Positions 8,469 to 27,312 of a DNA stretch of 64,000 nt are shown here, piece by piece; the stretch's first letter is position 1, and each line of letters begins with the position of its first letter. The DNA is from Sphingobium sp. JS3065 (GTDB lineage Bacteria > Pseudomonadota > Alphaproteobacteria > Sphingomonadales > Sphingomonadaceae). The DNA lies in the NCBI RefSeq assembly GCF_026427355.1, contig NZ_CP102666.1:186001-250000 (forward strand), given 5' to 3'. The position numbers and the translations under genes are program-made. Below the pieces are notes generated by a model. The model saw nothing but the letters and a program-made list of their open reading frames with translations, was not told the DNA's origin and ran no database searches.

Positions 8469-8512
8469 GACCGTTTCCCAATGTCGCGCGGCCGACCATT
8501 ATAGGCCTCTTA

Positions 8513-8556
8513 CTTGCATCTTTCAAAGTGGCGGTATAGATGCATCCAAGATGCAT
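8513..8556. promoter_or_regulatory. Candidate NsrR operator region
   Basis: Between the divergent nsrR and haemoglobin genes the sequence GATGCAT occurs twice (8539-8545 and 8550-8556), starts 11 bp apart, about one helical turn. A third, inverted relative AAGATGCAAG lies on the minus strand at 8513-8522. Known NsrR sites are built on the half-site AAGATGCATTT, so these match the half-site core. Placement 17 bases before the haemoglobin start suggests direct blocking of its promoter. Confidence 0.65.
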
Positions 8557-8572
8557 GATTGGAGAATGAGTC

Positions 8573-9281: not shown

Positions 9282-9290
9282 GAGGTATCG

Positions 9291-10502: not shown

Positions 10503-10617
10503 ACGAAGGCGGGGCGGAGGCAGGCAGTGGCCATGACATTGTCAGTTCCGCCCCTTTGCCCTCCATGGCGTTTGCGTGCATCGCCTTGAAGCACATCATA
10601 ATATTTGTAGTCATCCT

Positions 10618-10635
10618 GCAAAAACATTCATTTGC
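10618..10635 (-). promoter_or_regulatory. 18-bp regulon motif, copy 1
   Basis: Read on the minus strand this is GCAAATGAATGTTTTTGC, 16/18 identical to the copy at 25473. It lies in the 235-bp gap after hmp, about 100 bases before the small membrane gene that leads the efflux region. Five related copies occur between 18.1 and 25.5 kb. The ends GCAA and TTGC form a palindrome. Confidence 0.6.
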
Positions 10636-10737
10636 GTCATGAACCTGGCTTGCCCAAACCGGACATCAGGCCGTCATGGTGAAAGACCGCTTCGAATGCT
10701 GTTCCGACAGGAGAGGATGTCCAGGAGAGGGCAGCGG

Positions 10738-10938
10738 ATGAAGCCGTCAAGTCCAAGCCCCACTTTGCCCTGGCGGGGCATAGTCTGGACCATCATCATG
10801 GCGGCCGCGGCTTATGTCATCTTCTTCCTGCACAGACGCCGGATCATGACGGAAGAACAGTTGATGCTGTCCATTTTCGTCCTTGTCCCGATATCGACCT
10901 TTCTGTTGACGGGGCATGGCCAGGATCGATCGGGGTAA
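10738..10938 (+). CDS. Small membrane protein (66 aa), unknown function
   Basis: From the ATG at 10738, which has GGAGAGG about 9 bases upstream, the product has two hydrophobic segments (WTIIMAAAAYVIFFL and LMLSIFVLVPISTFLL) around an HRRR loop and a short polar tail. An alternative ATG at 10717 would add seven residues. No family was recognised. A copy of the shared 18-bp motif lies about 100 bases upstream and the efflux operon starts 199 bases downstream, so regulation with the island is possible. Confidence 0.55.
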   Translation: MKPSSPSPTLPWRGIVWTIIMAAAAYVIFFLHRRRIMTEEQLMLSIFVLVPISTFLLTGHGQDRSG

Positions 10939-11137
10939 TCAAAACAACGCAAGTGCCTCGGCGGAAACAGGCCTCATCGACCGCATCATGGGAGTGAAGC
11001 GACCCTGCACAAATTCGCCGCAAAACTATTGCAGGCAACCATCAATATTTTGATCTATGGATCGCCAAGGAAGATCATTAGTCAGCCCGGCATGAAGGGG
11101 GCAGGTGCACGGTCATTTTCGAACGTGACAATCCCTC

Positions 11138-13219
11138 ATGTCACGGTTGCCAGAGATGACGGTTACGCTCGCAGACCCGAATAGACGCCTGCAACTTCCC
11201 TCGTTTAAACTCGATCCACAGAAGCTGCTTTTTTCCCTGAGCAGCCTGCTCGCGGCAGCCATCACGCTGGCGATCGCGTTTTCGGCAAGCCTGTCTCGGC
11301 CCTGGTGGGCCCTTCTCACGGTCTATGTGACCGCGCAGCCCATGGCGGGCGCATTTCGTCCGAAGGTCTTTTATCGCTTGGGTGGGATCGCAACAGGCGC
11401 ACTGGCGACCATCCTGCTTGTTCCCAATCTGCAGAATTCTCCCGAATTGCTGGTCTTGTGCCTCGCCGCATGGACGGGCTTTTGTATTTATCTTGCAGTT
11501 CTGGATCGAACACCTCGAGCCTTTCTGTTCCAGATGGCAGCTTTCAGTTCGGCTGTGATCAGCTTCCCCTATCTGGACGATCCCGCCAATATCTTCGAGA
11601 CAACCATCGCGCGCGTCGAGGAAATGACGGTCGCGATCCTTTGCGTGACTACCGTCCACGCCCTGTTCCAGCCGTGGAGCGCAACGCCGGTCATCCGGGC
11701 AAGGGCCCAGTCCTTTCTGGGGCACGCGCGCCGGTGGGCGGCCGAAGCGCTTTCAAGCCAGCACACCAAGCTCGAATATGAGCATCGCCGAATGCTGGCG
11801 GCGGACGTCACCGAACTTGGCATGATCGCGATACACCTGCCGTTCGACCAGCGGTGGGCTCCCGCGACCCGGCGCCGGGTGACAGCGCTTCAGCAACAAT
11901 TGGCCAATATCCTGCCACTGGCATCGGCATCGGCGAACCGTCTCGATCTGTTGCGGGCAGATCAGGCGCTTGGTCCTGATCTGGCGCGGTTGCTCGATGA
12001 TATATCCGCCTGGCTGACGGACAAGGAGAGCAGGCCGGGCGAGGCCGCATCGCTGATCCGGGAATGCCAGCGCATGGCCGCAGATGCGGAATCCGAGGGA
12101 AGCTGGACCTCCCTGCTGACCGCGAGTGCTTGCGCGCGGATGGCAGAATTTCTCACTGCCATGGCTGCGAGCAGAAGACTTGCCAACAGGATCGGCAAGC
12201 CGGGGCGGGGCGGCGACAAGACTTTGTCCCAGACGTCTTTTGCTCTTGCGCGCGACCATGGCGTGGCAGCTCTGGCGGGTCTTGCAACCGCGACCGCAAT
12301 CATGATCTACTGCGCGGTCTGGATCCTGCTTGCCTGGCCGAATGGGTCTGCAACTGCAGCCTTTGCCGCACTCATCACATGTTCATTCGCGGCTCAGGAC
12401 GATCCGGCACCAGTCATCGGCCGCTATCTGCTGGCAACGCTCAAGACTTTCCCGCTGGCGGCCCTCTACCTGTTTGTCATCTTGCCGCGGGTGGATGGCT
12501 ATGAAATGCTGATCATCACGCTGGCGCCTGCCCTGCTGTGGATGGGATATGTGCAGGCGGATCCCAAGCGGTCGCCGCAGGCGCTGCCGATGTTTTCCTG
12601 CTTCATTGTCGCCATGGGCTTCCTTGCACGTTTCCAGGCGGACTTCGCCCTGTTCATCAATACCGGACTGGCGCAGCTTGGCGGCATCGCGACGACACTC
12701 GCGGTCACCAAGATGTTCCGTTCGGCCAATGTGCTCTGGACGGCACGCCGCATCTTGCGCGCCAATTGGGCCGACATGGCGCAGCTGGCGGACATTCGCA
12801 GGCCATTCACGCCTCAACGCTGGACGGCGATGGCGGTCGATCGGCTGGGGCAGGTCGCAGCCCGGATGGCGATCGTCGCGCCGGGCGATGATCTGCATGC
12901 TGCCGACGGCCTTGCCGACCTGCGCATCGGGCGCAACATCATCCCCCTGCGCAGGGCGCTGTCCCATGTGCCCCACGATGCCCGGCACAGTCTCGGGGCC
13001 GTGCTGGCGGGCCTGACGCGCTTCTATTCCGTGCGCTGGCGAGGAGGCAGGGCAGACGCGCCACCCCCGACACTCCTGGCAGCGATCGACCGCGCCTTGC
13101 ATGCCTTATTAGGTCTGCCGATGGACGAATTCCGACGGCCGGCGCTTCGCGCACTCGTCGGCATGCGGTGCAATCTGTTCCCGGGCGCCTTGCCGCCGGC
13201 CATCGCAGCAACGGCATGA
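11138..13219 (+). CDS. FUSC-family inner-membrane efflux protein (AaeB-like)
   Basis: The 693-residue product has two sets of about five to six hydrophobic segments (residues 30-190 and 375-530), each followed by a soluble part, the usual duplicated layout of the FUSC/AaeB family. Typical text includes SRPWWALLTVYVTAQPMAGAFRPK in the first half. AaeB-like proteins export aromatic acids and similar organic anions with a membrane fusion protein. Here the DUF1656, HlyD and outer-membrane genes follow with overlapping ends, so this is the pump of a tripartite system. A second ATG at 11156 is possible but the first fits. Substrate unknown. Confidence 0.9.
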   Translation: MSRLPEMTVTLADPNRRLQLPSFKLDPQKLLFSLSSLLAAAITLAIAFSASLSRPWWALLTVYVTAQPMAGAFRPKVFYRLGGIATGALATILLVPNLQNSPELLVLCLAAWTGFCIYLAVLDRTPRAFLFQMAAFSSAVISFPYLDDPANIFETTIARVEEMTVAILCVTTVHALFQPWSATPVIRARAQSFLGHARRWAAEALSSQHTKLEYEHRRMLAADVTELGMIAIHLPFDQRWAPATRRRVTALQQQLANILPLASASANRLDLLRADQALGPDLARLLDDISAWLTDKESRPGEAASLIRECQRMAADAESEGSWTSLLTASACARMAEFLTAMAASRRLANRIGKPGRGGDKTLSQTSFALARDHGVAALAGLATATAIMIYCAVWILLAWPNGSATAAFAALITCSFAAQDDPAPVIGRYLLATLKTFPLAALYLFVILPRVDGYEMLIITLAPALLWMGYVQADPKRSPQALPMFSCFIVAMGFLARFQADFALFINTGLAQLGGIATTLAVTKMFRSANVLWTARRILRANWADMAQLADIRRPFTPQRWTAMAVDRLGQVAARMAIVAPGDDLHAADGLADLRIGRNIIPLRRALSHVPHDARHSLGAVLAGLTRFYSVRWRGGRADAPPPTLLAAIDRALHALLGLPMDEFRRPALRALVGMRCNLFPGALPPAIAATA

Positions 13220-13440
13220 TCGAGGAAATCCATCTGCTCGGCGTGTATATGCCCGCCGCATTGCTTTGGGGCGTGCTGGCGATCGTACTGGTCTATCTGC
13301 TCCGCGCACCGTTGCAGCGATTGCCCTTCTATCGCCTGCTCTGGCATCCCAGTCTGCTGGAGCTCGCCCTGTTCATTCTGTTCTGGTGGGGGTTGTCCAC
13401 CCTTGCCGATGCCTTCCTCTATCGATGGTTCGCTTCCTGA
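13216..13440 (+). CDS. DUF1656 (AaeX-like) small membrane protein
   Basis: The 74-residue product (MIEEIHLLGVYMPAALLWG...) has two hydrophobic segments and the DUF1656 start EIHLLGVYMPA. AaeX-type proteins occur between FUSC pumps and HlyD adaptors; their role is not established. The ATG at 13216 overlaps the FUSC stop as ATGA, indicating coupled translation. The longer frame from 13168 is a shadow. Confidence 0.88.
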   Translation: MIEEIHLLGVYMPAALLWGVLAIVLVYLLRAPLQRLPFYRLLWHPSLLELALFILFWWGLSTLADAFLYRWFAS

Positions 13441-13441
13441 T

Positions 13442-14341
13442 ATGCTGCATCGCCAAAATCTTCTGCGCTCGATTGTGACGCTGCTCGTCATCCTCGTCAT
13501 TCTCGGCGGGATCTACGCCCTCTGGTTGCGCTATCAGGTTGAACCTGTCACGCGGGACGGCAAGGTCCGCGCGGACATGGTTCCGATAGCTGCCGACGTG
13601 GGTGGCCTCGTGACGGAAGTGCGCGTTAGCGATAATCAGCCCGTCAGAAAGGGTGATATCCTCCTCGTGATCGATCGCCCGCGCTATCAGCTGGCGCTCG
13701 AGCAGGCGAGCGCGAATGTGGCCAGCCAGCAGGCAGCGCTGGCGCAGGCGGTCCGGGAAGACCGGCGCAACCATGCGATGACCGAAGTGATCGCAACCGA
13801 AACCATTGAGCAGGGACGGGCGAGGGTCGACCAGCTGCGCGCCAGTGTCGGTCAGGCGATCGCCGCCCGCAATCTGGCCCGTTTCAACCTCGATCGCACT
13901 TTCGTTCGCGCGCCGGTTGACGGCACGGTTGCGAACATGTCCTTGCAACCAGGCGTCTATCTTGCGGCAGGCAAGCCGGCGCTGGCACTTGTTTACGACA
14001 AGTCGATGCGGGTGGAGGGCTATTTTGAAGAAACCAAGCTGCCTGCCATTCGCGTTGGCGATCCCGCCAGCATTTATCTGATGGGCGTTGCGGACGAGAT
14101 CCAGGGGCATGTACAGAGCATCGCTGGCGGCGTTGAGGACCGCGAACGGGCGGGTACGGACGGACAACTCGCCAATGTGAACCCCTCCTTCACGTGGGTT
14201 CGACTGGCGCAACGCATTCCCGTGCGGATCACCATCGACAAAATTCCCCCGCAGGTGCGGATGATCCCCGGTCAGACTGCAACCGTCGTCGTCCACCCCC
14301 GCAAGGACGGACGCAGCGCACACCGGAGTCTGCCATGGTAA
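13442..14341 (+). CDS. HlyD-family membrane fusion protein (AaeA-like)
   Basis: The 299-residue adaptor starts at the ATG at 13442, two bases after the DUF1656 stop. It has one N-terminal membrane anchor (about residues 8-28, IVTLLVILVILGGIYALWL) and the biotinyl-lipoyl half motifs (MVPIAADVGGLVTEVRVSDNQ and RAPVDGTVANMSLQPG). A coiled-coil hairpin (about 80-150) lies between and a beta-barrel (EGYFEETKLPAIRVGDPA) follows. It spans the periplasm and joins the FUSC pump to the outer-membrane channel. Its stop overlaps the next gene's start. Confidence 0.92.
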   Translation: MLHRQNLLRSIVTLLVILVILGGIYALWLRYQVEPVTRDGKVRADMVPIAADVGGLVTEVRVSDNQPVRKGDILLVIDRPRYQLALEQASANVASQQAALAQAVREDRRNHAMTEVIATETIEQGRARVDQLRASVGQAIAARNLARFNLDRTFVRAPVDGTVANMSLQPGVYLAAGKPALALVYDKSMRVEGYFEETKLPAIRVGDPASIYLMGVADEIQGHVQSIAGGVEDRERAGTDGQLANVNPSFTWVRLAQRIPVRITIDKIPPQVRMIPGQTATVVVHPRKDGRSAHRSLPW

Positions 14342-15759
14342 GGGGTGCGCACTATCTTGGTCTCGTCGTCCTGCTGGGCGGTTGTGCAAGTGTTGGGCCC
14401 GATTACCATGTGCCCCGCGCTGCGATGATCAACGCCCCTGGCGCGGCCCAACCTTTCCTTTCAGGCACCCTTGCGACGAAAGCGGAACCTCTCCCTGACC
14501 ATTGGTGGAAACTTTATGACAATCCAGCGCTCGACGCGCTGATCGAAAAGGCGCTGGAAACGAACACGGACCTGCGCGTGGCCGAAGCCAATCTGCAGCG
14601 CGCTCTTGCCCTGCTGGACGCGCGCGGCTCGTCCCGGGAAATTCAGGGCAGTCTCAACGCGGAGACAAGCTATGCCCAAAGATCGGGCGAGGCAGAACTG
14701 CAGCACGTTCAGCCCCCCGTTCGCCAGATCTACAACGCAGGTGTCAGCGTCAGCTATGACCTTGATCTATTTGGACGCCTCAAGCGCGGGATTGAGGCTG
14801 CCAGTGCTGATATGGAAGCCGCTGTTGCGGCGCGGGATCTGGCGCGGGTCAATGTGGCAGCGGAGACCGCTCGTGCTTATGCCGACGTTTGCAACGGTGG
14901 CTATCAGATTGACGTGCTGATGCGGTCAATCGCACTTCAGGAGAAAGGCATTCAGATCACCGGGGTGCTGGTCCGTAACGGTCGTGCCGCGCCTTATGAG
15001 TTGGATCGCCGGGGCGCGGCGCTCGCCGGCAACAGGGCGCGCCTGCCCCGGCTCGCAGCCGGTCGGCGCAACGCCGTCTTTCGCATAGCGGCGCTGCAGG
15101 GAAAGGTGCCAAGCCAGGCGGACATGGGACTCCTCGATTGCCGTCGACCGCTGGAACTGGCGCAGGTGATGCCGGTTGGTGATGGACAGGCACTGCTAAA
15201 GCGCCGGCCTGACATCCGCATGGCGGAACGGCGCCTCGCGGCATCGACTGCGCGCATCGGCGTCGAGACGGCGGCGCTATATCCCGATATCCGCCTGGGT
15301 GCCTCGGCCGGATCGACTGGCGCCGTAGCCGATATTCTGTCGCCACTCACCAATCGTTTCGGATTTGGCCCTCTCATCGGCTGGACGCTCAACCGCCACG
15401 CAGCGCGTGCACGGATCGCCGCCGCCCAGGCGCAAGGCAGCGCCGATCTCGTCGCATTCGACGGCGCGGTGGTCAAGGCTCTGCGCGAAGTCGAGGCAGC
15501 GCTCAACAGCTATGATGCGGGCTTGCAACAGCAACGGGAACTGGATGAGGCGCGCGAGGAGGCCGAACGCGTGGCACGACGCATCACGCAACTGCGCCGC
15601 GGAGGCAAGATAGCCGAACTACCCGCAGTCGAGGCGGAACGTGATCTTGTGATTGCAGAGCAAGCTGCCGCCGAGGGCAGGGCAGCCGTGAATAACGACC
15701 AGATCACCCTTTTCCTGGCTCTAGGCGGAGGCTGGAAAGCGTCAACCATCGGGGAATGA
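14335..15759 (+). CDS. NodT/OprM-type outer-membrane efflux lipoprotein
   Basis: The ATG at 14335 overlaps the HlyD stop. The 474-residue product has a lipoprotein signal with the lipobox LLGGC (Cys about 17) and then CASVGPDYHVP, standard for NodT-type outer-membrane factors. Two long helical TolC-like repeats follow, with DHWWKLYDNPALDALIEKAL and VSYDLDLFGRLKRGIEAA in the first and LLKRRPDIRMAERRLAA in the second. It forms the outer-membrane duct of the FUSC-HlyD pump. Length is normal and all three channel genes look intact. Confidence 0.93.
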   Translation: MVRGAHYLGLVVLLGGCASVGPDYHVPRAAMINAPGAAQPFLSGTLATKAEPLPDHWWKLYDNPALDALIEKALETNTDLRVAEANLQRALALLDARGSSREIQGSLNAETSYAQRSGEAELQHVQPPVRQIYNAGVSVSYDLDLFGRLKRGIEAASADMEAAVAARDLARVNVAAETARAYADVCNGGYQIDVLMRSIALQEKGIQITGVLVRNGRAAPYELDRRGAALAGNRARLPRLAAGRRNAVFRIAALQGKVPSQADMGLLDCRRPLELAQVMPVGDGQALLKRRPDIRMAERRLAASTARIGVETAALYPDIRLGASAGSTGAVADILSPLTNRFGFGPLIGWTLNRHAARARIAAAQAQGSADLVAFDGAVVKALREVEAALNSYDAGLQQQRELDEAREEAERVARRITQLRRGGKIAELPAVEAERDLVIAEQAAAEGRAAVNNDQITLFLALGGGWKASTIGE

Positions 15760-15786
15760 AGTCATCGTTCTGTCTCAGAGACCTTC

Positions 15787-16173
15787 TCATCTTTCGTCGA
15801 CATCACGCGTGACGGTAATATTGTCCGCCTTTCCATCCTCCAGATGCAACGCCACCGTCCAGATAGCATCGGCGGGATAATAGTCGTTGATGGTGATCCT
15901 TTGAGCGTTGCTACATCTGGCCGATCGAGGGTCGCCTGCCACTCCGGAACATCGTGCCCCGGCTTTTTCGAGCATCTCGAGAGCACCCCAAAAAGACGTT
16001 CCGATGGGCACGGCCTGCAGCAGGGACGCTTTGGCGTGCTGCATATCGCCGTACCATTGATAGTCGCTTTCCAACCCCTCGAAAGTGAAGGATCGCGTCG
16101 CGGAGGCTTCCGCATGCGCCGCCGGTACTGCGGACAACATCAGGATGGCGGAAATGAATTTGCATGATCTCAT
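15787..16173 (-). CDS. Secreted hypothetical protein (128 aa)
   Basis: The ATG at 16173 gives a clear Sec signal peptide (MRSCKFISAILMLSAVPAAHAEA, cleavage after AHA). A periplasmic domain of about 105 residues follows with two cysteines (ARCSGVAG and ARCSNAQ) that could form a disulfide. It ends with ITVTRDVDER. The family was not recognised. Upstream in-frame sequence to 16398 is not protein-like. It is convergent with the efflux operon, 27 bases after its end. Confidence 0.65.
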   Translation of the reverse strand: MRSCKFISAILMLSAVPAAHAEASATRSFTFEGLESDYQWYGDMQHAKASLLQAVPIGTSFWGALEMLEKAGARCSGVAGDPRSARCSNAQRITINDYYPADAIWTVALHLEDGKADNITVTRDVDER

Positions 16174-16394
16174 CGTCGGGACGTCTGCTCGCGGTGAATG
16201 TCTCATTGTTCTAACGGAATAGGCTTGATTAGCGTAATGCATAATCTTGCGATCGGGGATGAGCAAATCTGTCGGGTGGTCGGCGGCAGCGAGGGCGGCC
16301 GTTCCTTGTTTCGCCGTTGGCCATGTCCCCTTCATCCGCGTTTCATGCCATGAGGACAAGGATCCGCGCAATTTCACCCGATCGTGCGGGACAA

Positions 16395-16784
16395 TCATGA
16401 CAGTCGATGCAGCCCGCTTTCCTCATGCAGCCGTGCCTTAAGCGCGGCGATGCAGATGGCGATGGCTTGTATCCCATGGATCCCGACCCACGCTCCGCTT
16501 TCTCCATGGACATGTATTTCACGGCCATGTGTTTCGATCCAGCATCCGGGGGGCACAAGCGTCGCAGCTGCGGATTGCAAGGCCGAATATCGAAGGGCGC
16601 GAGCATGGGTTCCATCAATCTGGCGCCACACGCCCGGACCAACTCTCGGGAGGTCGCCCAAGCCTGGGAAAACCGCTAACGAAATCCGGGCATCCAGCCC
16701 CCGATTGGGAACGGTGGCGCCTACACAGGCCGCGATGGCCGCCTTGAGTTCCAAATTGTCCGCGATCATGTCCGCCCAGGGCAT
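16395..16784 (-). CDS. Conserved hypothetical protein, sphingomonad type
   Basis: The product from the ATG at 16784 is 129 residues: DNLELKAAIAACVGATVPNR, then LPRVGPGVWRQIDG, then LVPPGCWIETHG, then IQAIAICIAALKARL. The pattern looks like a real folded protein, and I recall similar unnamed proteins in sphingomonad genomes, but no function is known to me. No strong ribosome binding site is visible. The carbonic anhydrase gene ends 20 bases upstream of its start, so it may be the third gene of the peroxiredoxin-carbonic anhydrase operon. Confidence 0.55.
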   Translation of the reverse strand: MPWADMIADNLELKAAIAACVGATVPNRGLDARISLAVFPGLGDLPRVGPGVWRQIDGTHARALRYSALQSAAATLVPPGCWIETHGREIHVHGESGAWVGIHGIQAIAICIAALKARLHEESGLHRLS

Positions 16785-16803
16785 GTAAAATGATCGCCGG
16801 CCA

Positions 16804-17481
16804 TCATCTCTGCTCGGTAATGAAGGGATTGATGACGGGTGGGCAGACCCTTCGCAGACGGCCATCGCCGATGGCATACACCCATCCATGAAGAGTCAGT
16901 TCTCCTGATTGTTCCCAGGCGCGTCGCACGAACGGGTTGGCAGCCAGGGCCTCGACCTGCATCCTGACATTGAGTTCGCAGAGCTCATTTGGACTGACCG
17001 GAATGGTTTCAGCTTTGCGCGACTGGCTTTGATGCAGATCTCGTATCGGAGCCAGCCAGTGGCCGATCGCGTCCTCAGTCTCTGTCGCCATCGCCGCCTG
17101 GATGCCGCCACATCCATAGTGACCCACCACGATGACATGATGAACTTCGAGGATTTCGATGGCAAATTGCAGCGCCGCAGCCAGGCTGGGATCGTCCCTT
17201 TGGGCGAGATTGGCTACATTGCGATGCACGAACATTTCACCTGGATCCAGGTCGACTATTTCGGTTGCCGGCACGCGGCTATCGGAGCAGCCGATCCAGA
17301 AGTATCGCGGACGCTGCTGGTCCACGAGACGGGTGAAGAAGGTGGGATCACCATGAGTCTTGGCTTCCGCCCAGGCCCGATTGCTCTCAAACAGAGATTG
17401 CAGGGCTCCGTCCCCCGGAACTGGCCTTGCGTCTCCATCCTCTTGGAGCATAGCATCCTGCCTATTGATGGAGATCGACAA
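16804..17481 (-). CDS. Beta-class carbonic anhydrase
   Basis: The 225-residue product shows the beta-carbonic anhydrase zinc ligands: C65 and D67 in IGCSDSRVP, then H121 and C124 in GHYGCGG. EMFVHRNVANL and the late GWVYAIGDG segment also fit. It interconverts CO2 and bicarbonate in the cytoplasm. It overlaps the peroxiredoxin gene upstream by 20 bases, so the two are transcribed together. A copy of the shared 18-bp motif lies upstream of the pair. About 25 extra N-terminal residues precede the conserved core; the start at 17481 is the best supported by the overlap. Confidence 0.94.
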   Translation of the reverse strand: MSISINRQDAMLQEDGDARPVPGDGALQSLFESNRAWAEAKTHGDPTFFTRLVDQQRPRYFWIGCSDSRVPATEIVDLDPGEMFVHRNVANLAQRDDPSLAAALQFAIEILEVHHVIVVGHYGCGGIQAAMATETEDAIGHWLAPIRDLHQSQSRKAETIPVSPNELCELNVRMQVEALAANPFVRRAWEQSGELTLHGWVYAIGDGRLRRVCPPVINPFITEQR

Positions 17482-18094
17482 TCCGCAGATAGGGCTTGAG
17501 CGTTTTGTATCCTTGCGGGAACTGCCGGTTAGCCTCCTCTTGGGAAAGCTTTGGCGAAATCACGACGGGTTCGCCCGGGAGCCAGTTCACCGGGGTCGCA
17601 ATGCTCCGGGTATCTGTGAGCTGGAGGCTATCGATCGCGCGCAGAATTTCCGGGAAATTCCGACCCGTGCTCGGTGGATAGGTGAGGATCAGCCGAACCT
17701 TTTTGGAGGGGTCGATCACGAATACGGAGCGGACCGTCACGGCTGGATCGCTTTCCGGATGGATCATGTCATACAGCCTCGAGACGCGAGCGTCAGGGTC
17801 GGCAATCATCGGGAAGTCCAGTGCGACGCCCTGGGTGTCGTGAATGTCTTCTTCCCACTTGCGATGGGCTTCGACCGGATCAACGGAGAGGCCGATGGGC
17901 TTGACGTTGCGTTTGTCCCATTCCGGACGAAGCCTGGCGACCTCGCCGAGCTCTGTCGTACAGACCGGCGTGAAGTTCTTGGGATGGCTGAATAGCACGG
18001 CCCAATGCGATCCCAGCCACTCATGGAACCGGATGCGGCCGTGCGTGCTGTCCTGCTCGAAGTCGGGGGCGATCTGCCCGAGATGGATCGTCAT
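17462..18094 (-). CDS. 1-Cys peroxiredoxin (Prx6/AhpC-TSA family)
   Basis: The ATG at 18094 follows a strong AGGAGG site. The 210-residue protein has the Prx6-type active site SHPKNFTPVCTTELG with peroxidatic C45. DPVEAHRKWEEDI, the TYPPSTGRNFPEILRAIDSLQ segment and a long C-terminal domain with GYKTLKPYLR follow. No resolving cysteine is evident, as usual for the 1-Cys class. It reduces peroxides and perhaps peroxynitrite in the cytoplasm. It is first in an operon with carbonic anhydrase and has a copy of the 18-bp motif 48 bases upstream of its start. Confidence 0.94.
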   Translation of the reverse strand: MTIHLGQIAPDFEQDSTHGRIRFHEWLGSHWAVLFSHPKNFTPVCTTELGEVARLRPEWDKRNVKPIGLSVDPVEAHRKWEEDIHDTQGVALDFPMIADPDARVSRLYDMIHPESDPAVTVRSVFVIDPSKKVRLILTYPPSTGRNFPEILRAIDSLQLTDTRSIATPVNWLPGEPVVISPKLSQEEANRQFPQGYKTLKPYLRIVDLHQ

Positions 18095-18141
18095 GAATCC
18101 TCCTTTTTCCGCCCCCAATGTGCGCCAGCAAATGCGATCAA

Positions 18142-18159
18142 ACAAATGAATGTTATTTC
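18142..18159 (+). promoter_or_regulatory. 18-bp regulon motif, copy 2
   Basis: The sequence is ACAAATGAATGTTATTTC, 15/18 identical to the copy at 25473. It lies 48 bases upstream of the peroxiredoxin start (minus strand), in an AT-rich pocket of otherwise GC-rich DNA, which is a promoter-like position. Confidence 0.65.
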
Positions 18160-18312
18160 TTGTTGAATACAATCATTTTACGGACACAAGGGCGATGGTG
18201 GCCATCGGGTCGTGACCGTCATGGCCGCCGACAAGAAGAGGTGGGCGGAGAGCAGCGCACGCCGAACCCCAGTCGTCCAGGAGCAAAAATGGGCTTGGGC
18301 TATGGCTTCCGC

Positions 18313-18735
18313 TCATGCCTGCTCCCCGTTGCCCGCTTCCGGTTTCGAGCGGCCCGGATCGGCTCCGAACGTCAAGGGCCATACGTTGTACAATTCTGGT
18401 GGAGGAGCGACCTCCTCACAATCTCCATAGGGGCGGCGCGGTCTTTGCTTCCCGATATCAGAGGCCGCAAATGCACCTATGGCCGCCGCCACGATGAAGC
18501 AGATCATGGATGGCAGGAGCCCATCGTCAATGAAGTTCCGATGATGGAGATAATATACGCCTGCAACGAGGCCAATGGTCAGTAACGTCAGTGCGAAGGC
18601 CAGCCAGCGACCCATTCTGCCTGGGGGAGCCGGCTCATGCCAGAAGGGTCCGGGGTGTTTCATGGTCTGGTGCTGACCTCGGTCGGCGCGATGGGGGACG
18701 TGGCTGCGGCCACGGCGATCTCTCCTTGTCGCCAT
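18313..18735 (-). CDS. Small inner-membrane protein (140 aa), unknown function
   Basis: The ATG at 18735 has a good AGGGAGA ribosome site 4 bases upstream and is favoured over the internal ATG at 18663. After a basic, probably cytoplasmic N-terminus there are two hydrophobic segments (LAFALTLLTIGLVAGVYYL and SMICFIVAAAIGAFAA). The tail is polar. No family was recognised. It is divergent from the LysR gene with only 70 bases between, and that gap contains copy 3 of the 18-bp motif. This is the classical position for a gene controlled by its neighbouring LysR regulator. Confidence 0.6.
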   Translation of the reverse strand: MATRRDRRGRSHVPHRADRGQHQTMKHPGPFWHEPAPPGRMGRWLAFALTLLTIGLVAGVYYLHHRNFIDDGLLPSMICFIVAAAIGAFAASDIGKQRPRRPYGDCEEVAPPPELYNVWPLTFGADPGRSKPEAGNGEQA

Positions 18736-18762
18736 ATCTTCTCCCTGCTAGGCACATATCAA

Positions 18763-18780
18763 GCAAATGATTATTATTGC
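18763..18780 (+). promoter_or_regulatory. 18-bp regulon motif, copy 3 (LysR divergent promoter)
   Basis: The sequence GCAAATGATTATTATTGC is 17/18 identical to the copy at 25473. It lies in the 70-bp gap between a membrane protein gene (start 18735, minus) and the LysR-type regulator (start 18806, plus), 26-28 bases from each start. This is the usual place for an autoregulatory LysR operator. Confidence 0.7.
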
Positions 18781-18805
18781 GCATTAACCGCAAGGATCGG
18801 CATAG

Positions 18806-19654
18806 ATGGACATCGGCATCGCCCGCACTTTTCTCGAGGTGGTGAAGACCGGTAGCTTCGTAGGCGCGGCGAACAATCTGCATCTTACGCAGACCGCCGT
18901 GAGCGCCCGCATTCGCGTTCTGGAAGAGCAGCTCGATCGGCCTGTATTCATCCGAAACAAGGCAGGCGCAAAGCTGACCCAGGCAGGTGAACAGTTCCTT
19001 CGTTTCGCCACGACCCTCGTTCAAGTGTGGGCGCGCGCACAACGGGCAGTCGCACTCCCGCCGGGTCGTGAAACAGTGGTCACGGTGGGGGCGGAGCTTA
19101 GCTTGTGGAGCCCGTTGCTGCGGCACTGGCTGTTATGGATGCGGCGCGAGTGCGCCGAAATCGCCGTAAGCACGCATATAGATGCGTCCGAACGCCTGAT
19201 GGAGCAGGTTCAGGACGGAACACTCGATGTCGCCGTGCTTTACGCAGCACCCAGCCGGCCCGGGATCATCGCCGAACTTCTTTTCGAAGAGAAACTGGTG
19301 CTTGTGCGGACCACCCCGACCAACGCGCGGCTTGAACCCGAGGACCATGTCCAGATCGACTGGGGTGAAGAATTTGCGGCGAGCTACCAGGCGGCCTTCC
19401 CTGATCAGCCCAACGCGGTCGTGTCGATCAGCTATGGCCCTCTGGCGCTGGATTATATCCTCGCAACGGGCGGCAGTGGTTATTTCCGGAAAGGTTTCAT
19501 TCGTCCCTATCTGGAGGAGGGACGCCTCGCGGTTGTGGCGGGTAGTCCTGAATTTTCCTATTCGGCCTATATGGTTCATTCCACCAAGGCGGATCCCGGC
19601 GTGATGGACCGTGTCCGGGCCGGACTCCATGCCGCAGCAGCGATCGCGATATGA
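18806..19654 (+). CDS. LysR-type transcriptional regulator, HdfR-like
   Basis: The 282-residue protein has the N-terminal LysR helix-turn-helix (MDIGIARTFLEVVKTGSFVG, then LHLTQTAVSARIRVLEEQL). The text closely follows the HdfR subgroup, including the VGAELSLWSPLLRHWL motif of the effector domain. LysR regulators usually bind an imperfect palindrome in the divergent promoter next to their own gene. The 18-bp motif at 18763 fits that position and recurs at five other promoters of the island, so this protein is the leading candidate regulator. The effector is unknown. The stop overlaps the next gene's ATG. Confidence 0.9.
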   Translation: MDIGIARTFLEVVKTGSFVGAANNLHLTQTAVSARIRVLEEQLDRPVFIRNKAGAKLTQAGEQFLRFATTLVQVWARAQRAVALPPGRETVVTVGAELSLWSPLLRHWLLWMRRECAEIAVSTHIDASERLMEQVQDGTLDVAVLYAAPSRPGIIAELLFEEKLVLVRTTPTNARLEPEDHVQIDWGEEFAASYQAAFPDQPNAVVSISYGPLALDYILATGGSGYFRKGFIRPYLEEGRLAVVAGSPEFSYSAYMVHSTKADPGVMDRVRAGLHAAAAIAI

Positions 19655-20133
19655 TGAACGAGCCTTCCTCCCCGGTATGTTACGGCGCCGGCGCCGATGA
19701 CCAATATATGGGCTTTGCTTCACGCGACGAAATTGTCGCCGCTCTCAACGAACTGCTTGAAGCGGAGCGGGCTGGCGCTCGCGTTGCCCTGGCCAGCGGA
19801 CGTGGATCGGAGAACGTGCGTTTCTCAGAATTGATGCGGATCATACGGGCGGATGAGGCATATTGGTGCGCCATGCTGTCGCGGCAGATTCGAGAGCTGG
19901 GCGCTGTTCCTTCCCGTCGCACGGGAGCATTTTATGGTCGCGCGATGGACATCGTGGACCCCCATGAGCGCACGCTGTTCCTTAATCGGGGCCAGTCCTG
20001 GGTTGTACGCAAGCTTCAGGCTCTGATGCCGCGGGTCAGGGATGAAGTTCTGCACAGGGATTTGCAGAGAATGGCTGAAAGGCATGGGACGAATATCAAG
20101 CTGGCAGAAGCGTTTCTCCAAGACGCCGGCTGA
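19651..20133 (+). CDS. DUF6306-like ferritin-fold protein
   Basis: The 160-residue product contains LNELLEAERAGARVALAS, then IIRADEAYWCAMLSRQIRELGA, then HRDLQRMAERHGTNI, a largely helical protein with spaced Glu and His residues like ferritin-like DUF6306 proteins. The role is unknown; metal binding is possible from the E-x6-E and D-E spacing but not shown. It overlaps the LysR stop (ATGATGA), so the two are co-translated. That makes it a partner of the regulator in the stress island. Confidence 0.7.
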   Translation: MMNEPSSPVCYGAGADDQYMGFASRDEIVAALNELLEAERAGARVALASGRGSENVRFSELMRIIRADEAYWCAMLSRQIRELGAVPSRRTGAFYGRAMDIVDPHERTLFLNRGQSWVVRKLQALMPRVRDEVLHRDLQRMAERHGTNIKLAEAFLQDAG

Positions 20134-20234
20134 TCGATTCCAGTCATGCCGTCACCCGCCCATCGGCGTGGCCGCCCGCTCAGTCGGACAAAAACCAGGC
20201 GCCGAAATAACCGCAATAATATCTCTTCAATCAC

Positions 20235-20252
20235 CCAATTATATTCATTTGA
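20235..20252 (-). promoter_or_regulatory. 18-bp regulon motif, copy 4
   Basis: On the minus strand this reads TCAAATGAATATAATTGG, 15/18 identical to the copy at 25473. It lies 38-62 bases before the two candidate starts of the retropepsin-PDZ gene, in an AT-rich stretch. It is the most degenerate at the palindromic ends. Confidence 0.5.
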
Positions 20253-20290
20253 TTCAGGCAATACGGTAGACAATAGGACCTCGAAAAAGA

Positions 20291-21463
20291 TTGAATGGCG
20301 CGGGGGAAATCAGCGTGTTGAAATGGCTCTTGGGCAAATCGCCGATCCATAGGGCGAGAGCAGCAACATGTCCGGGCGGCGCCATCGACGGAATATGGGA
20401 GGCGCTCGATCTTGCCGAGCGTCGAATGATCTTCGCGCCTGTGAAACTGGAAAACACCATCATATCCGCGCTGGTGGACAGTGGCACCTCCCGGACCATC
20501 ATCAATAGCGGCCTGGCCAGGGAATTGGGATTGGTGCCGCTGGGAGAGACGTCTGTCACGTCCTTTACACGTCGTGTCGCCGGTGTGAGTTATCGGGCAG
20601 CGACAATGGAATTGGCTGGCACGATCTTGAAGGATTTCGTGTTCGATAGCTACGAGACGGCAGACATAGAGGCGTTGGCACGCCGCCAACTGCCCTTGAT
20701 AGTGGGACGCGATGTCCTGAAGAAGATCGATGTGGAGATCGATTTTATCGGGGATCGCATTCGCTGGACGTCCCCCGGACCACGGCGGAATGTCAGGCCC
20801 GGCCTCAGATTGCCGCTATGCGGCGAACGTGCGGCCTTTCCGTCGATCGATCTGGCCATTGAAGGCATGACACAGGAAAGATGCCTGCTTGACCTGGGCA
20901 GCGATACGCCGGTCACGATGTCCGCCGCGTTTGCCAAAGAGCGCGGCTTGTTTGAAGGACGCCGCCAGTCGACCGCGGTATCAATTGGCCTTGAAGGCGT
21001 TCTGACAAATATCGCGTTTACACTCCGCAACGTGAGCATCGGTGACTTTGCTTGGCATGATGTGCCGGTGCAAGCTGTGGAGAACTGGAAGCTTGCGCAA
21101 CCCATATCCGTCGGGTGGCCATTGTTCCAAGCCTTTCACATCGTTCTGAGCCTGGGCGCCAGGACGATGGACATGACGGCAAACAGGCAAGTCCTCGCTT
21201 CGCCAATTCCGAGAGACAGGCTGGGAATTTCCGGCCGACGGGAAGAACAGAGACTTGTCATCTCCCATGTCGCCCCGGGCAGTCCTGCCTGGCATGCCGG
21301 ATTGCGCGGCAACGATGTCCTGGTAAATGTCGATGGCCGCGCGATCAGCCGTGGCTACCCCGCGCCTGGAGATCGCGTCGGCTTTCGGGCACCAGGCAGC
21401 GTCGTCAGACTGGGCCTCGCCGATGGCCGCACCCTCGAGATCATGCTGATAGACTATTATTGA
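20291..21463 (+). CDS. Double retropepsin-like aspartic protease with PDZ domain
   Basis: The 390-residue product from a TTG at 20291 (or GTG at 20315) has a retropepsin lobe with the active-site motif LVDSGTSRTII (Asp about 63) and a second lobe with CLLDLGSDTPVTM (Asp about 201). A PDZ domain follows at about 310-388 (LVISHVAPGSPAWHAGLRGNDVLVNVDG). Retropepsins normally act as dimers with two D-T/S-G motifs; here both lobes are on one chain and the second reads DLG. No signal peptide is clear, though a weak hydrophobic start is present. A copy of the 18-bp motif lies just upstream. Substrates unknown. Confidence 0.8.
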   Translation: MNGAGEISVLKWLLGKSPIHRARAATCPGGAIDGIWEALDLAERRMIFAPVKLENTIISALVDSGTSRTIINSGLARELGLVPLGETSVTSFTRRVAGVSYRAATMELAGTILKDFVFDSYETADIEALARRQLPLIVGRDVLKKIDVEIDFIGDRIRWTSPGPRRNVRPGLRLPLCGERAAFPSIDLAIEGMTQERCLLDLGSDTPVTMSAAFAKERGLFEGRRQSTAVSIGLEGVLTNIAFTLRNVSIGDFAWHDVPVQAVENWKLAQPISVGWPLFQAFHIVLSLGARTMDMTANRQVLASPIPRDRLGISGRREEQRLVISHVAPGSPAWHAGLRGNDVLVNVDGRAISRGYPAPGDRVGFRAPGSVVRLGLADGRTLEIMLIDYY

Positions 21464-21533
21464 AAGCCTCAGGTCAACCGAGGGCCGGGAGCCACTATCC
21501 GCTGATATAGCACAATATATTTCATATGAATGA

Positions 21534-21551
21534 GAAATAACATTCGTTTGT
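21534..21551 (-). promoter_or_regulatory. 18-bp regulon motif, copy 5
   Basis: On the minus strand this reads ACAAACGAATGTTATTTC, 14/18 identical to the copy at 25473 and 17/18 identical to copy 2. It lies about 128 bases upstream of the flavodoxin-CysI fusion gene in a 215-bp gap with no other gene. Confidence 0.6.
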
Positions 21552-21678
21552 GTTATGTTATCGTTCCGCGCAAAAGGCCTGGGCGTGAAGCGGCTTCGGA
21601 ACAAGCCCAATGCGACAGCGACATCCGTGAGGATGGATTTGCCGTCGGGAAGGAGCTGGACGCCGAGGAACGAGAACG

Positions 21679-22653
21679 ATGTCTGTATCGGAACCGCCAG
21701 GGCACTCCCTTTCCCTGGAACAGAGGCGACAAGTGGAGGCACTGGCCCAGTCGCTCACACCGATGCAGGCGGTCTGGCTTGGCGGCTATTTCACCGGGTT
21801 AGACGTCGGCTTGCGGCAACCCCTGACGCAGCCGGCGTCTACCAAAACAGCCGATCTGCGCTCTTTGACCATAATATATGGAACGGAGACAGGAAATGCC
21901 GCCGAGCTCGCAAGGACGCTCAAGGCCGCGGTGAATGCCAGGAGCATGGACTGCATCGCGGTCGACATGGCCGATTACAAGACACGGCAGCTGGCGCAAG
22001 AGCAGGACCTGCTCATTATCGTCAGCACCTATGGGGAGGGGGATCCTCCTCAGCCGGCGACCGGCTTTTTTGAATTCCTCGAGGGCCGCAAGGCGCCGCG
22101 GCTCGAGGGAATCCGGTTCGCAGTCCTTGCCTTGGGCGACCCAACCTATGAATATTTCTGCCAGGCTGGGAAGAGGCTGGACCGGCGGCTGGAGGAACTT
22201 GGAGCGGCGCGGCTTGCGCCGCGCGTCGAGTGTGACGTGGACTATGAGGAACGGGCAGAACAGTGGATCGCGTCGGCGTCTCCTGCGCGACAACAGGCAG
22301 AGCCAGCGCGAGGGCAAGCGTCCCCAGCGCCCATTTTGCATTCACCCGGCGATGCTATCATCATTCGGATGAGCGGCTATCCCAACGGCTGCTCGCGTCC
22401 CTATCTCGCCGAGATCGGTCTTACCGGCAGGGCGCCGGGCAAGTACAATCTGTATCTGGGCGGCGGCTTTCACGGCGAACGCCTCAACCGCATGGTCCGC
22501 GAAAATGTCGGGGAGCCGATCATTCTGCAAGTGCTCCGGGATGCAATCGGGCGTTTCGCCCGCGAACGTGAAGCTGGTGAGCATTTCGGCGATTTTGCCG
22601 TTCGCGCCGGCATCGTCCGGGCGGTTAGCGAAGGGCGCATGTTCAATGAATGA
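21679..22653 (+). CDS. CysJ flavodoxin domain fused to the C-terminal end of CysI
   Basis: Residues 10-200 match the N-terminal part of sulfite reductase flavoprotein Cys[16 protein letters not shown] is followed by FMN-binding [21 protein letters not shown] and [12 protein letters not shown]. After a linker (about 201-220), residues 222-324 match the C-terminal end of the haemoprotein Cys[15 protein letters not shown], then GKYNLYLGG, then [12 protein letters not shown]. The FAD/NADPH half of CysJ and most of CysI are absent. In CysI the siroheme/[4Fe-4S] motif is C-P-N-G-C; here the first cysteine is Tyr234, while C238 remains. It overlaps the downstream metB-like gene. It may be a deletion relic or a new small redox protein. 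Confidence 0.85.
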
Positions 22654-23818
22654 GGAGGATATGGCGGCCATGCATCCTGAAACGATCGCGGCAGCTTTCG
22701 GTGTTGCGACCGATACGGCCTATGGCGCGGTCACGCCACCGCTTTATCTCTCGAGCACATATGAATTTGAGGCGTTCGGGAAGCCGCGACTATATGATTA
22801 TGGACGCGCGGCCAATCCGACACGAGATCTCCTTGCGGATGCGATCGCCGCGCTCGAAGGCGGGGCAGGGACTGTCATCACTTCGAGTGGAATGTCTGCT
22901 CTTGATCTTCTTGTCGGCGGTCTGCGCCGCGACGAACTCGTGCTGGCCCCACATGATTGCTATGGCGGTACGATGCGCCTGCTCAAGGCACGCGCGAAAC
23001 TTGGTCATTGTTCGGTCCGCTTTGTCGATCAGACGGATGATGCAAGCCTCTTGAGCGCTTTGAGCGACGCCCCCGCCCTGGTGCTGATCGAATCCCCCAG
23101 CAACCCGCTCATGCGTGTGGTGGACATCGCGGCGCTCGCGTCACAGGCAAAAAAGGCGGGCGCAGCGGTTGCTGTCGACAACACGTTTCTTACCCCGGCA
23201 ATCCAGCGCCCCCTCAGCCTGGGCGCGGATTATGTCATCCACTCCACCACGAAATATCTCAATGGACATTCCGACGTGATCGGCGGCGCGATTGTCTCAG
23301 CGCGGGCAGACGAGGCGGATCGATTGCTTTCCTGGGCTAATGTCATCGGTACGGCAGGCTCCCCATTTGACTCCTGGGCGACGCTCCGGGGATTGCGGAC
23401 GCTATTTGCCCGCATGGCGTTCCAGCAGAGCAACGCTATGGCGATAGCGCGCCATCTGGAGACCCATCCGGCCGTCTCTCGCGTCCATTATCCGGGACTA
23501 GTGAGACATCCCGGTCACTCCATTGCATTGCGGCAGCAGCGAGGGTTCGGCGCCATGCTGAGCTTCGAGCTGGCTGGAGGGGTCGAGGCAGTTCGCCAAT
23601 TCATGACGAACGTCAAATTCTTCACGGTCGCTGAATCGCTGGGGGGCGTGGAGAGTTTGGTCTCCCATCCGGCAACCATGACCCACGCGGACATGGGCGA
23701 GGAGACGCGGGCTCTGGCAGGCATCAACGACAGCTTGCTACGGCTATCGGTCGGCCTTGAGGCGGAAGGAGATCTGCTAGCGGGTCTTGAGGTGGGTCTT
23801 GCGGCATGCCGGGGCTAG
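22646..23818 (+). CDS. metB: Cystathionine gamma-synthase-type PLP enzyme
   Basis: The product (about 383-390 residues) is a Cys/Met-metabolism PLP enzyme. [20 protein letters not shown] is followed by [45 protein letters not shown] and the lysine motif [17 protein letters not shown]. The fold and KYLNGHSD context fit O-succinylhomoserine (thiol)-lyase/cystathionine gamma-synthase; a gamma-lyase or O-acetylhomoserine sulfhydrylase cannot be excluded. Its first ATG (22646) overlaps the fusion gene's stop; AGGAGG at 22653-22658 better serves the in-frame ATG at 22670. The pairing with a sulfite-reductase-derived gene suggests a sulfur assimilation role. Confidence 0.88.
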
Positions 23819-23849
23819 TCGATCAGGGCATCGCTGAAGCGAGAGGAGA

Positions 23850-24101
23850 ATGGAATTGCCTGGCTATGTGATTGCGGTCGATGTCTTCGGCCTTGTCCTC
23901 GTTTTCGTCGGCTTCAACATGGCGTTCCGTCAACCGTTTGTCCGCCGTTTGCTCGGCCGTGCGTCCGAGCCGCCTCGGTCACGCGTCTCAACCGGTCAGG
24001 AGGAAGATCCGCTGACCTATATTTTGAGGATCGCCGGAGTCATGATCATGGTCTTCGGCATTGCTATCGGAGGAATGCTGACGCTATTCAATCTGGATTA
24101 G
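23850..24101 (+). CDS. Small two-segment membrane protein (83 aa)
   Basis: The ATG at 23850 has AGAGGAGAA just upstream. The product has two hydrophobic segments (VIAVDVFGLVLVFVGFNM and ILRIAGVMIMVFGIAIGGML) joined by a basic, polar loop. No family was recognised. It lies 31 bases after the metB-like gene on the same strand and could be its operon partner. Confidence 0.6.
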   Translation: MELPGYVIAVDVFGLVLVFVGFNMAFRQPFVRRLLGRASEPPRSRVSTGQEEDPLTYILRIAGVMIMVFGIAIGGMLTLFNLD

Positions 24102-24459
24102 ATCACTTCGGCAGTGGCCGGGTGATTGGCATCATCCCGATATTATCTCGTCCAAAAAATGGGAAGGATTCGATGATAGCGACAGCAAATCATGGGTGCG
24201 CTGCTCATTTGCCCGGCCGCCTCCCCGTTCATAGCCCGACGGCCTGGCCCTGGACGATCGAGGACCGCGAACCTTGTAGATTTTCTCGCCCATATCGAAG
24301 CGATGCTCAACGGCGCAACGATACTCGGATAGTGAAGAGGTTCCCGGCGTCCTGCTTTGGAGGTGTCAGTCAAGACCGAGATGATTTCGACGTCCTTCGC
24401 GAGGGGAGAGCCCAGACATCGCGTTCTGCGGCCGACCCGCGGCTGGTCTGGATACGCTC
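24102..24459. other. Gene gap without a supported gene
   Basis: The 358 bases before the DUF488 gene contain only frames whose products do not look like proteins. One short plus-strand frame ends NLVDFLAHIEAMLNGATILG before a TAG near 24330 and could be a remnant, but nothing upstream supports a full gene. No 18-bp motif copy was seen here. Confidence 0.4.
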
Positions 24460-24846
24460 ATGAGCGGCACGATCGATATCAAACGGATTTACGAAACCGC
24501 CAGCAGCAGTGATGGAAAACGTGTCCTGGTCGATCGCCTCTGGCCAAGAGGTGTCTCGCTTCACTCTGCGGCACTCGATCTATGGCTGAAGGAAATCGCC
24601 CCCAGCGCGGACTTGCGCAAATGGTTCAATCATGATGCCACGCGTTTTGCGGCCTTCCGGGACAGGTATCGCCTGGAACTTGATGCGAACCCGGACATAT
24701 TGGCCCAAATCTACAAATTGGCCGATCAAGGGGACGTGACATTGCTCTATGCCGCGCATGACCGACGTGTGAATCACGCGGTGGTCCTGGCCGAATATCT
24801 GAAGGAGCACGGATGCAGGCTCCGGCATGCGAGCAATGTCGCGTGA
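24460..24846 (+). CDS. DUF488 family protein
   Basis: The 128-residue product matches the compact DUF488 family: IYETASSSDGKRVLVDRLWPRGVS, then LDLWLKEIAPSADLRKWFNHD, then FRDRYRLEL and VTLLYAAHDRRVNHAVVLAEYLK. These are single-domain cytoplasmic proteins of unknown biochemical role, often found in stress or nitrite/heme contexts. The ATG at 24460 overlaps the end of a weak frame, and the domain starts close to it. It looks complete and intact. Confidence 0.9.
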   Translation: MSGTIDIKRIYETASSSDGKRVLVDRLWPRGVSLHSAALDLWLKEIAPSADLRKWFNHDATRFAAFRDRYRLELDANPDILAQIYKLADQGDVTLLYAAHDRRVNHAVVLAEYLKEHGCRLRHASNVA

Positions 24847-25052
24847 TTATACATCCACGGAGCGGAACGAAAACGAGTGCCCGGTCGCAGCCGCGCCCTA
24901 AATAAGATCTGCCGAGATCCCGGCCGTCGTTCGGCAGTCGGTTGCACGGCAAAATGGATGCCGATCCGTGGGGGCAGGCTGCTTCGGATCGGCATCCGCC
25001 AGCGGGGCGGCCGCTGGATCGACATATGTGAATGGGGCAATGACAGGGGTGA

Positions 25053-25325
25053 TCAGTTACTCCGGTGTCCGGCGAATTGTTTTGCCGCCTCTTGATCATC
25101 CCGCCTTGGCTCCGTTGCGGAGTTAATGTGATAACCATCTGCAAGAACAGCATATTTTGGACCAGCAAAGAGCGTATCCGGCGTGTGCCACGCCTTGCTG
25201 ACGGTCATCTGCTTGCAGCCGAGCATCACCTTTTCACCAGGCTGAGGCAGCTGGGAGAAATAAAGTGCTCCATGCAATTTTGCGCTCGGAATATCCTGGC
25301 CCAGATAAATGGAAACAAGCATCAT
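25053..25325 (-). CDS. Small hypothetical protein (90 aa)
   Basis: The ATG at 25325 (followed by a second ATG) has GAGAGGAAA just upstream, a good ribosome site. The product (MLVSIYLGQDIPSAKLHGAL, then PQPGEKVMLGCKQ, then FAGPKYAVLADGYHIN) looks like a small mixed alpha/beta domain with a beta-rich middle. The family was not recognised. The 447-bp gap upstream contains a copy of the 18-bp motif 148 bases away. Confidence 0.55.
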   Translation of the reverse strand: MMLVSIYLGQDIPSAKLHGALYFSQLPQPGEKVMLGCKQMTVSKAWHTPDTLFAGPKYAVLADGYHINSATEPRRDDQEAAKQFAGHRSN

Positions 25326-25772
25326 TTTCCTCTCTATGAGATGTTCACGGGTATCTGTCCCACTCACTAAGGTGAGGGCAGTCTTTCCCTTGCTATGGTT
25401 CCACCAGCATGAGGACATGCGCGGGGATCAGGACGGGGTTCGCGCGACGTTTGTCGCCGTTCATGATGTCATGCAAATGAATATTATTGCATCTTAACTT
25501 GAAACTATTTCATCGATAATCGTCTCTGAGACATTATCGGTTAACATGAAAATATTTTCAATCATTGTAACTTAAAATTATCTTTTTGAACTTTTATCCG
25601 GATGTTACAGGCCGCGAACGGTCTTTTCTTTCTCCATCGTGACTGCTCCAACCAGCGTCCAATAGAATTCCAGATTGTTCAACCGGTCGTTGTTCTGATC
25701 CATGAACATGCTTTTGCGATACATCCCATCCAATGAAGTTGAACGATTATAATTTTATTATTCATCAGGACT
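25326..25772. other. AT-rich divergent promoter region
   Basis: This 447-bp gap lies between a small minus-strand gene and the cyclopropane synthase gene. It is clearly more AT-rich than its neighbourhood from about 25470 to 25760. It contains the perfect-consensus 18-bp motif at 25473 and several A/T runs that could serve as promoters. No gene is supported within it. Confidence 0.55.
25473..25490 (+). promoter_or_regulatory. 18-bp regulon motif, copy 6 (consensus)
   Basis: The sequence GCAAATGAATATTATTGC serves as the reference for the five other copies. It sits 148 bases from the start of the small minus-strand gene and 283 bases from cfa, so either promoter could be the target. The GCAA and TTGC ends are inverted repeats. 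Confidence 0.65.
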
Positions 25773-26969: not shown

Positions 26970-27312
26970 AAGTCGGTTTATGAGCCGGTCGACCTGATTG
27001 CGCCTCTGCCCCGCGGGAATTGCCCTGCTCGTGCATCTCATAGCGACGCCCCGGCGTCCCGGAAGCACTCCCACGCAAGTCGCAGAGTTCCTTGCCTTCA
27101 CAAGGGAGCATGTTTGACTCGTCCGGTGCGCGCGTGCAATGAAGTGGCTATGCATTCACGCAGCGATCATGTGCGCTTCCGCTACCAAGGGGGACAGCTT
27201 CTCGCGGGCATCTAGCCCCGGGTTTCGGCGCGTCTTGCTCCGGACTCGGGGCAAATCGACAGACTGCCGCTCGCCGGAAGGCGTGTGACAAATCCTCTCG
27301 AAAGACAATGCC
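26970..27312. other. Gene gap, nothing supported
   Basis: The 343 bases between cfa and rnk hold only shadow frames. The minus-strand frame reaching 27591 is antisense to rnk. I see no motif copy, no clear terminator and no RNA-like structure. Confidence 0.45.

Follow-up and report, generated by a model that had tools for sequence, protein, structure and literature searches.

The closest described relatives of the system analysed here are found among LysR-type regulators. OxyR, CysB and MetR each act through a two-part operator with one part at −35, serve several operons and control their own gene, and in this type the divergent operator is shared; the CysB regulon includes a site for its LysR-type regulator before cysJI. 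The targets of HdfR in E. coli are the flagellar genes and gltBD. Two- and three-repeat layouts are among those described in PMC5002191. The locus of Sphingobium sp. JS3065 considered here likewise combines a two-part operator reaching −35 with several operons and predicted control of the regulator gene, but its motif differs from those of OxyR, CysB and MetR, lysR is preceded by a reversed operator of its own, placed beyond the inferred transcription start, and the detectable sites are confined to one plasmid-type contig. It shares with the CysB regulon a site before cysJI, but also includes peroxiredoxin and efflux genes; with AaeXAB/AaeR it shares an adaptor and a pump resembling AaeA and AaeB (243.5 and 91.8 bits, under the model cut-offs of 400 and 870 bits, respectively), whereas the operator here also stands before redox and sulfur operons. 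No account of this regulon was found in searches of an open-licence library, a scope outside which most subscription papers fall, and we rate it as a new regulon of a known kind, fitting a multi-operon LysR activator with negative autoregulation.

The window, which is the whole stretch of DNA analysed, comprises 64,000 nucleotides and corresponds to bases 186001–250000 of contig C3 (307,737 bases) in a genome of 5.1 Mb and five contigs; its features are collected in Table 1. It is very probable that an operator of about 41 bp is bound by the LysR-type protein encoded at 18806–19654, which would activate the target operons and repress its own gene. A preliminary description of this DNA had proposed that the LysR protein controls the whole set of genes next to the motif. 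A regulon around this protein is indeed well supported by genome co-occurrence, the fixed place of the site at lysR, the mutual recovery of sites by matrices made from lysR sites and from target sites and the activator-like promoter geometry, whereas one member of the proposed set, cfa, is probably not a target.

Table 1. Features of the regulon island (window coordinates).
Feature	Position	Strand	Basis or remark
Operator copy (18-mer 10618–10635)	10595–10635	−	18-mer match, matrices, profile
Variant operator upstream of FUSC efflux gene	11019–11059	−	Ancestral-type LysR–FUSC site
AaeXAB-type efflux operon: FUSC, DUF1656, HlyD adaptor, outer membrane factor	11138–15759	+	
Peroxiredoxin and carbonic anhydrase genes	16804–18094	−	
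Operator copy facing peroxiredoxin operon (− strand)	18142–18182	+	18-mer match, matrices, profile
Inferred lysR promoter	18726–18754	+	TTGTCG, 17 nt, TAGGCA
lysR's own operator, reversed relative to targets	18763–18803	+	43 nt before ATG
LysR-type regulator, 282 aa	18806–19654	+	Domains, NCBIfam
DUF6306 gene	19651–20133	+	Overlaps lysR end
Operator before aspartyl protease–PDZ gene, weakest of six	20212–20252	−	Profile E 0.014
Aspartyl protease–PDZ gene	20315–21463	+	
Operator before cysJ–cysI remnant and metB	21511–21551	−	Profile E 5.4e-7
cysJ–cysI in-frame deletion remnant	21679–22653	+	
metB, cystathionine gamma-synthase	22646–23818	+	TIGR02080, 598 versus 504.55 bits
Operator, promoter side toward − strand (90-aa ORF 25053–25325)	25473–25513	+	18-mer match, profile

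The regulator is of the LysR type, with an N-terminal HTH_1 domain (66.5 versus 26.6 bits) and a C-terminal LysR_substrate domain (58 versus 28 bits). Its earlier designation as HdfR-like holds in so far as HdfR (NF002946) is the nearest NCBIfam model, matching residues 1–257, and an HdfR chain is its second-best PDB match, but the score of 122.7 bits lies far under the 240-bit cut-off. CysB is absent from the 25 best of its 49 NCBIfam matches. Across 57 orthologues, HTH residues 28–36 show at least 98% conservation, a near-invariance that agrees with the unchanged operator site. The sole cysteine, C116, is kept in 56 of the 57 orthologues, but in the predicted model (mean pLDDT 84) it directly follows helix 103–115; a role as redox sensor is at most a lead. 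The LysR group also occurs in Parvibaculum, Hyphomonas and Dyella.

All six copies of the 18-bp motif listed in the preliminary description are present, each in a gene gap and AT-rich within GC-rich DNA; those beginning at 10618, 18142, 18763, 20235, 21534 and 25473 match the 25473 copy at 16, 15, 17, 15, 14 and 18 of 18 positions, exactly as had been counted. They are enriched over shuffled sequence: five copies lie within three mismatches of the 25473 copy, whereas 100 shuffles gave 0.03 on average; that at 21534, the sixth, differs at four positions. The 18-mer is nevertheless only half of a directional operator of about 41 bp, and the six copies are joined by a seventh, variant site (11042, minus strand) that precedes the FUSC gene.

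Searched over the whole genome, a pattern of the kind first described gave nine matches when at most two mismatches were allowed, the six island copies among them, and 20 when three were allowed, for which a reversed-pattern control gave nine. A more selective, 46-column profile was trained without the window on 50 sites from other species (50 of 68 non-redundant sites, efflux-variant and other weak sites being excluded by choice). A genome-wide scan, a kind of check that had been suggested, run with this profile over 5,112,546 bases at E ≤ 10 with 150 of 297 candidates scored, returned exactly the six copies, with E values between 5.4e-7 and 0.014. The 11042 site was not reported by this profile, whose training omitted such variants; it and the 20235 site are weak or variant. 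Several other candidates were set aside: the best match in this genome outside the island (contig C3, position 98977, extended score 27.5) has no evident fitting gene and is absent from the profile output, an early iterative matrix with a 12-bit threshold was discarded after drifting into plain AT-rich DNA, with 725 overlapping matches, and the possibilities of a Fur-like or an NsrR-like motif were dropped. No Rfam family was found in window 9000–27000.

The operator was delineated in 43 loci encoding a LysR protein 73–95% identical to that of the window (L021–L063, taken from 61 loci after leaving out 18 weak matches, L064–L081, with L025 dropped as a duplicate of L024 and the window added). 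The iterated matrix describes an element of about 41 bp, composed of CAAAYGAATRTTATTG, a TT-A block and GCAA-N5-TTGC; read by eye, it corresponds to CAA-N10-TTG plus GCAA-N5-TTGC, without a clear T-N11-A box. It yields 147 sites, 146 of them outside called genes, and all 126 sites of at least 24 bits lie outside called genes, although 84% of the locus DNA is called coding; these counts are not independent, because the loci were chosen for holding LysR and several are near-identical. Since AT-richness alone would favour matches in gaps, reversed matrices served as a control. One matrix was trained on 21 lysR-promoter sites alone; the window and 13 loci whose −43 site is absent or degenerate were taken out by hand for the training but stayed in the test set. 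It found 98 sites of at least 18 bits, of which 67 do not lie at lysR, and its reversed form found one; a matrix from 62 non-lysR sites found 132, against eight when reversed. Each group of sites therefore finds the other, and the six sites of the window are recovered by both matrices, neither of which was trained on them; the target-only matrix additionally recovers the 11042 site.

The operator keeps a largely fixed place at lysR. When the highest-scoring plus-strand match no more than 300 nt from the gene is taken, its start lies exactly 43 nt upstream of the start codon in 28 of the 43 loci, window included, a place from which the regulator may control its own gene; 27 of these sites score at least 19 bits and that of L056 just 5.6. 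The distance is 42, 41 and 39 nt in L033, L055 and L057, respectively. Of individual loci, L100 and L101 (LysR 64 and 63% identical) keep a site at the usual place, L096 and L097 (75% identical) have degenerate sites only, L099 (LysR of genome G288, 65% identical) has no site before lysR, and Dyella has an efflux-type variant site only. Duplicated regulators were also seen. In L089 (6383–8784) a pair of lysR copies is separated by about 0.7 kb, with identities of 84 and 85% to that of the window; both have a site at the usual place, which is good in one and weak in the other. L095 (9389–10183) encodes the second LysR of genome G244, perhaps a decaying copy, with one in-frame TGA.

Outside this selected set, regulator and operator occur together in genomes of the family. 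The LysR protein was detected at E ≤ 1e-80 in 20 of 298 genomes (eight LysR candidates scored per genome) and a profile match at E ≤ 0.001 in 17 (20 candidates scored per genome, stricter filters). A match is present in 16 of the 20 genomes with the regulator and in one of the 278 without it (Fisher 6.6e-22), although in at least three genomes the matches are not independent of the profile, since G174, G196 and G133 overlap its training loci L023, L045 and L041. By coordinate comparison, 38 of the 39 profile matches lie within 15 kb of a lysR. Four genomes with the regulator (G043, G067, G123 and G288) gave no profile match under the stricter filters, and in G255, where no LysR reaches E ≤ 1e-30, a good site is present 0.6 kb short of one end of an 8.3 kb contig. 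A loose 16-mer behaves similarly, being found in 15 of 20 genomes with the regulator, where 34 of its 39 matches are linked to lysR, and in 33 of 278 without it, in none of which do two matches lie within 20 kb. Its 39 matches in the latter exceed the nine of a reversed control over all 298 genomes, an excess that perhaps reflects sites of other regulators.

These distributions weigh on two alternative readings. That the motif is a mere AT-rich promoter or upstream element without a dedicated regulator might be argued from its overlap with the inferred −35 and its AT-richness in GC-rich DNA, but is scarcely credible given that its six genome matches fall in one 15 kb stretch, that it is near absent from the 278 genomes without LysR and that it is reversed at lysR. 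Binding by another regulator of the island, such as an Rrf2-family or a MarR-family protein, is very improbable; Rrf2-family genes do occur in 24 of the 43 loci and a MarR gene cluster in nine, but many site-bearing loci have neither, it is lysR to which the site keeps its fixed 43-nt distance, and the unselected genomes tie the site to LysR. In the window itself, genes for an Rrf2-family regulator, a truncated haemoglobin, DUF1971 and a flavohemoglobin adjoin the regulon (7992–10502), and the matrix scan found no operator copy between them.

The orientation of the operator differs between lysR and its putative targets. Counting near-identical loci, and counting a site for both neighbours where nothing lies between, the site runs with the gene at lysR in 41 of 41 cases and against it at peroxiredoxin (29/29), cysI (6/6), metB (6/6) and cysJ (10/11); at FUSC, 17 of 22 run against the gene and five with it. 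TTG occupies the operator end toward the target gene in 46 of the 61 non-redundant target sites, and in 35 of the 61 a CA follows exactly 17 nt past this TTG hexamer, compared with a mean of 6.5% at other offsets and with one of 24 non-redundant lysR sites; the CA columns fall outside the operator matrix. From this spacing, the operator covers about −34 to −71 of the inferred start. At lysR, TTG and TA separated by 17 nt are instead both kept upstream of the operator in 15 of the 24 sites, which places the lysR start near the operator edge. Orientation and spacing together point to an activator geometry at the targets and a roadblock at lysR.

In the mechanism that we propose, the conserved dyad CAATAAYATTCRTTTG (in gene direction) would merge into the target −35 at about −34 to −49 and a second dyad, GCAA-N5-TTGC, would lie between about −61 and −71; LysR activators that bind as two dimers usually show this layout. 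Given an inducer, LysR would recruit RNA polymerase to the peroxiredoxin–carbonic anhydrase, AaeXAB-type efflux, protease–PDZ and cysJI/metB operons. At its own gene the reversed operator extends from the inferred transcription start to the Shine–Dalgarno sequence, so that bound LysR would repress lysR and the DUF6306 gene, which probably share an operon. Alternatively, LysR might bind the operators and mainly keep the targets repressed, with release by an inducer. Contact with the inferred −35 of the targets puts the operator at a place that is also open to a repressor, but this reading is unlikely: with half-sites near −40 and −65 of the inferred starts (about −42 and −66), the target promoters present the common activator layout of the LysR family, and their inferred −10 elements are poor (CAMANT against TATAAT), as expected of activator-dependent promoters.

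Two promoters of the window illustrate this arrangement. The first operator faces the plus strand, a small ORF at 10765–10938 and then the efflux operon, with −35 TTGCGT at 10632–10637 and a −10-like CAAACC at 10655–10660; at the peroxiredoxin operon, a −35 TTGTTT (18140–18145) is followed by a −10-like CACATT (18117–18122). Other details given for these gaps need adjustment. The divergent lysR promoter measures 70 bp, as first reported, with the longest start (18735) of the small minus-strand ORF, but 190 bp with start 18615, which is that annotated in plasmid 3pYBL2-3. The 25473 copy does lie in the cfa gap, but its promoter side faces the minus strand, away from cfa; for this reason, and because an IS630 gene intervenes in 3pYBL2-3, cfa is an improbable target. 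A weak AT-rich candidate site is present at 25569 (minus strand).

Across the loci, the families with a site of at least 24 bits upstream are, per locus holding the family, lysR (37/43), peroxiredoxin (25/29), FUSC efflux (20/24), cysJ (10/10), cysI with a DUF934 gene behind it (6/6) and aspartyl protease–PDZ (2/3). The site is directly upstream of metB in six of 20 loci, and in several metB follows cysJ–cysI. The peroxiredoxin side often has further members, carbonic anhydrase in 18 loci and Fe/Mn superoxide dismutase in 14, and the DUF6306 gene is found in 29 of the 43 loci. The efflux operon is of the AaeXAB type in uniting FUSC pump, DUF1656 and HlyD adaptor, and the same variant operator precedes FUSC in other loci; in Dyella and in part of the Novosphingobium loci, the LysR gene and the FUSC operon diverge from a gap that contains a variant site, an arrangement like that of AaeXAB/AaeR. 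What had been read as a CysJ–CysI fusion is actually a deletion remnant of about the first 200 residues of CysJ, its flavodoxin part, and the last 98 of CysI. The CysI part is 83% identical to that of L041, with Tyr in place of a cysteine of its CPNGC motif, a 4Fe–4S cysteine. Pairs of cysJ and cysI lie behind the same operator in other loci, and the remnant is shorter still in plasmid pMEA01 (L103). The operator in the window may now mainly serve metB.

All detectable sites in the genome lie with the regulator in a single 15 kb stretch of a plasmid-type contig. Region 9001–27000 is 100% identical over its whole length to plasmid 3pYBL2-3 of Sphingobium sp. YBL2 and 93% identical over 95% to pMEA01 of Sphingomonas sp. 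MEA3-1, both of which are typed as conjugative. In 3pYBL2-3 (L102), an IS630 transposase gene at 25624–26684 separates cfa from the 25473-type operator; the window is without it, although otherwise a 100% match. A tyrosine recombinase/integrase gene is present downstream of the island, at 34255–35454.

The target set indicates oxidant, thiol or sulfite stress along with efflux and suggests a guess at the inducer: an oxidant, an electrophile or a sulfite or thiol signal, perhaps together with aromatic acids. More tentatively, and with less than even confidence, LysR and its promoters may travel together on sphingomonad plasmids and islands, controlling nothing else in the host, with one inducer switching all of them; the signal would then possibly be sensed through C116, or be sulfite, another reactive sulfur species or an oxidant. 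If so, sulfite reduction, methionine synthesis, peroxide defence and aromatic-acid efflux would be switched on together in any recipient.

An uncharacterized LysR group thus gains a predicted operator, a promoter map and a list of targets, and its inducer can be sought by reporter. Recurring together in related bacteria, the regulator and its sites look like a self-contained switch, which suggests that accessory stress genes can reach a new host pre-wired, with the regulator and its binding sites moving as one block.
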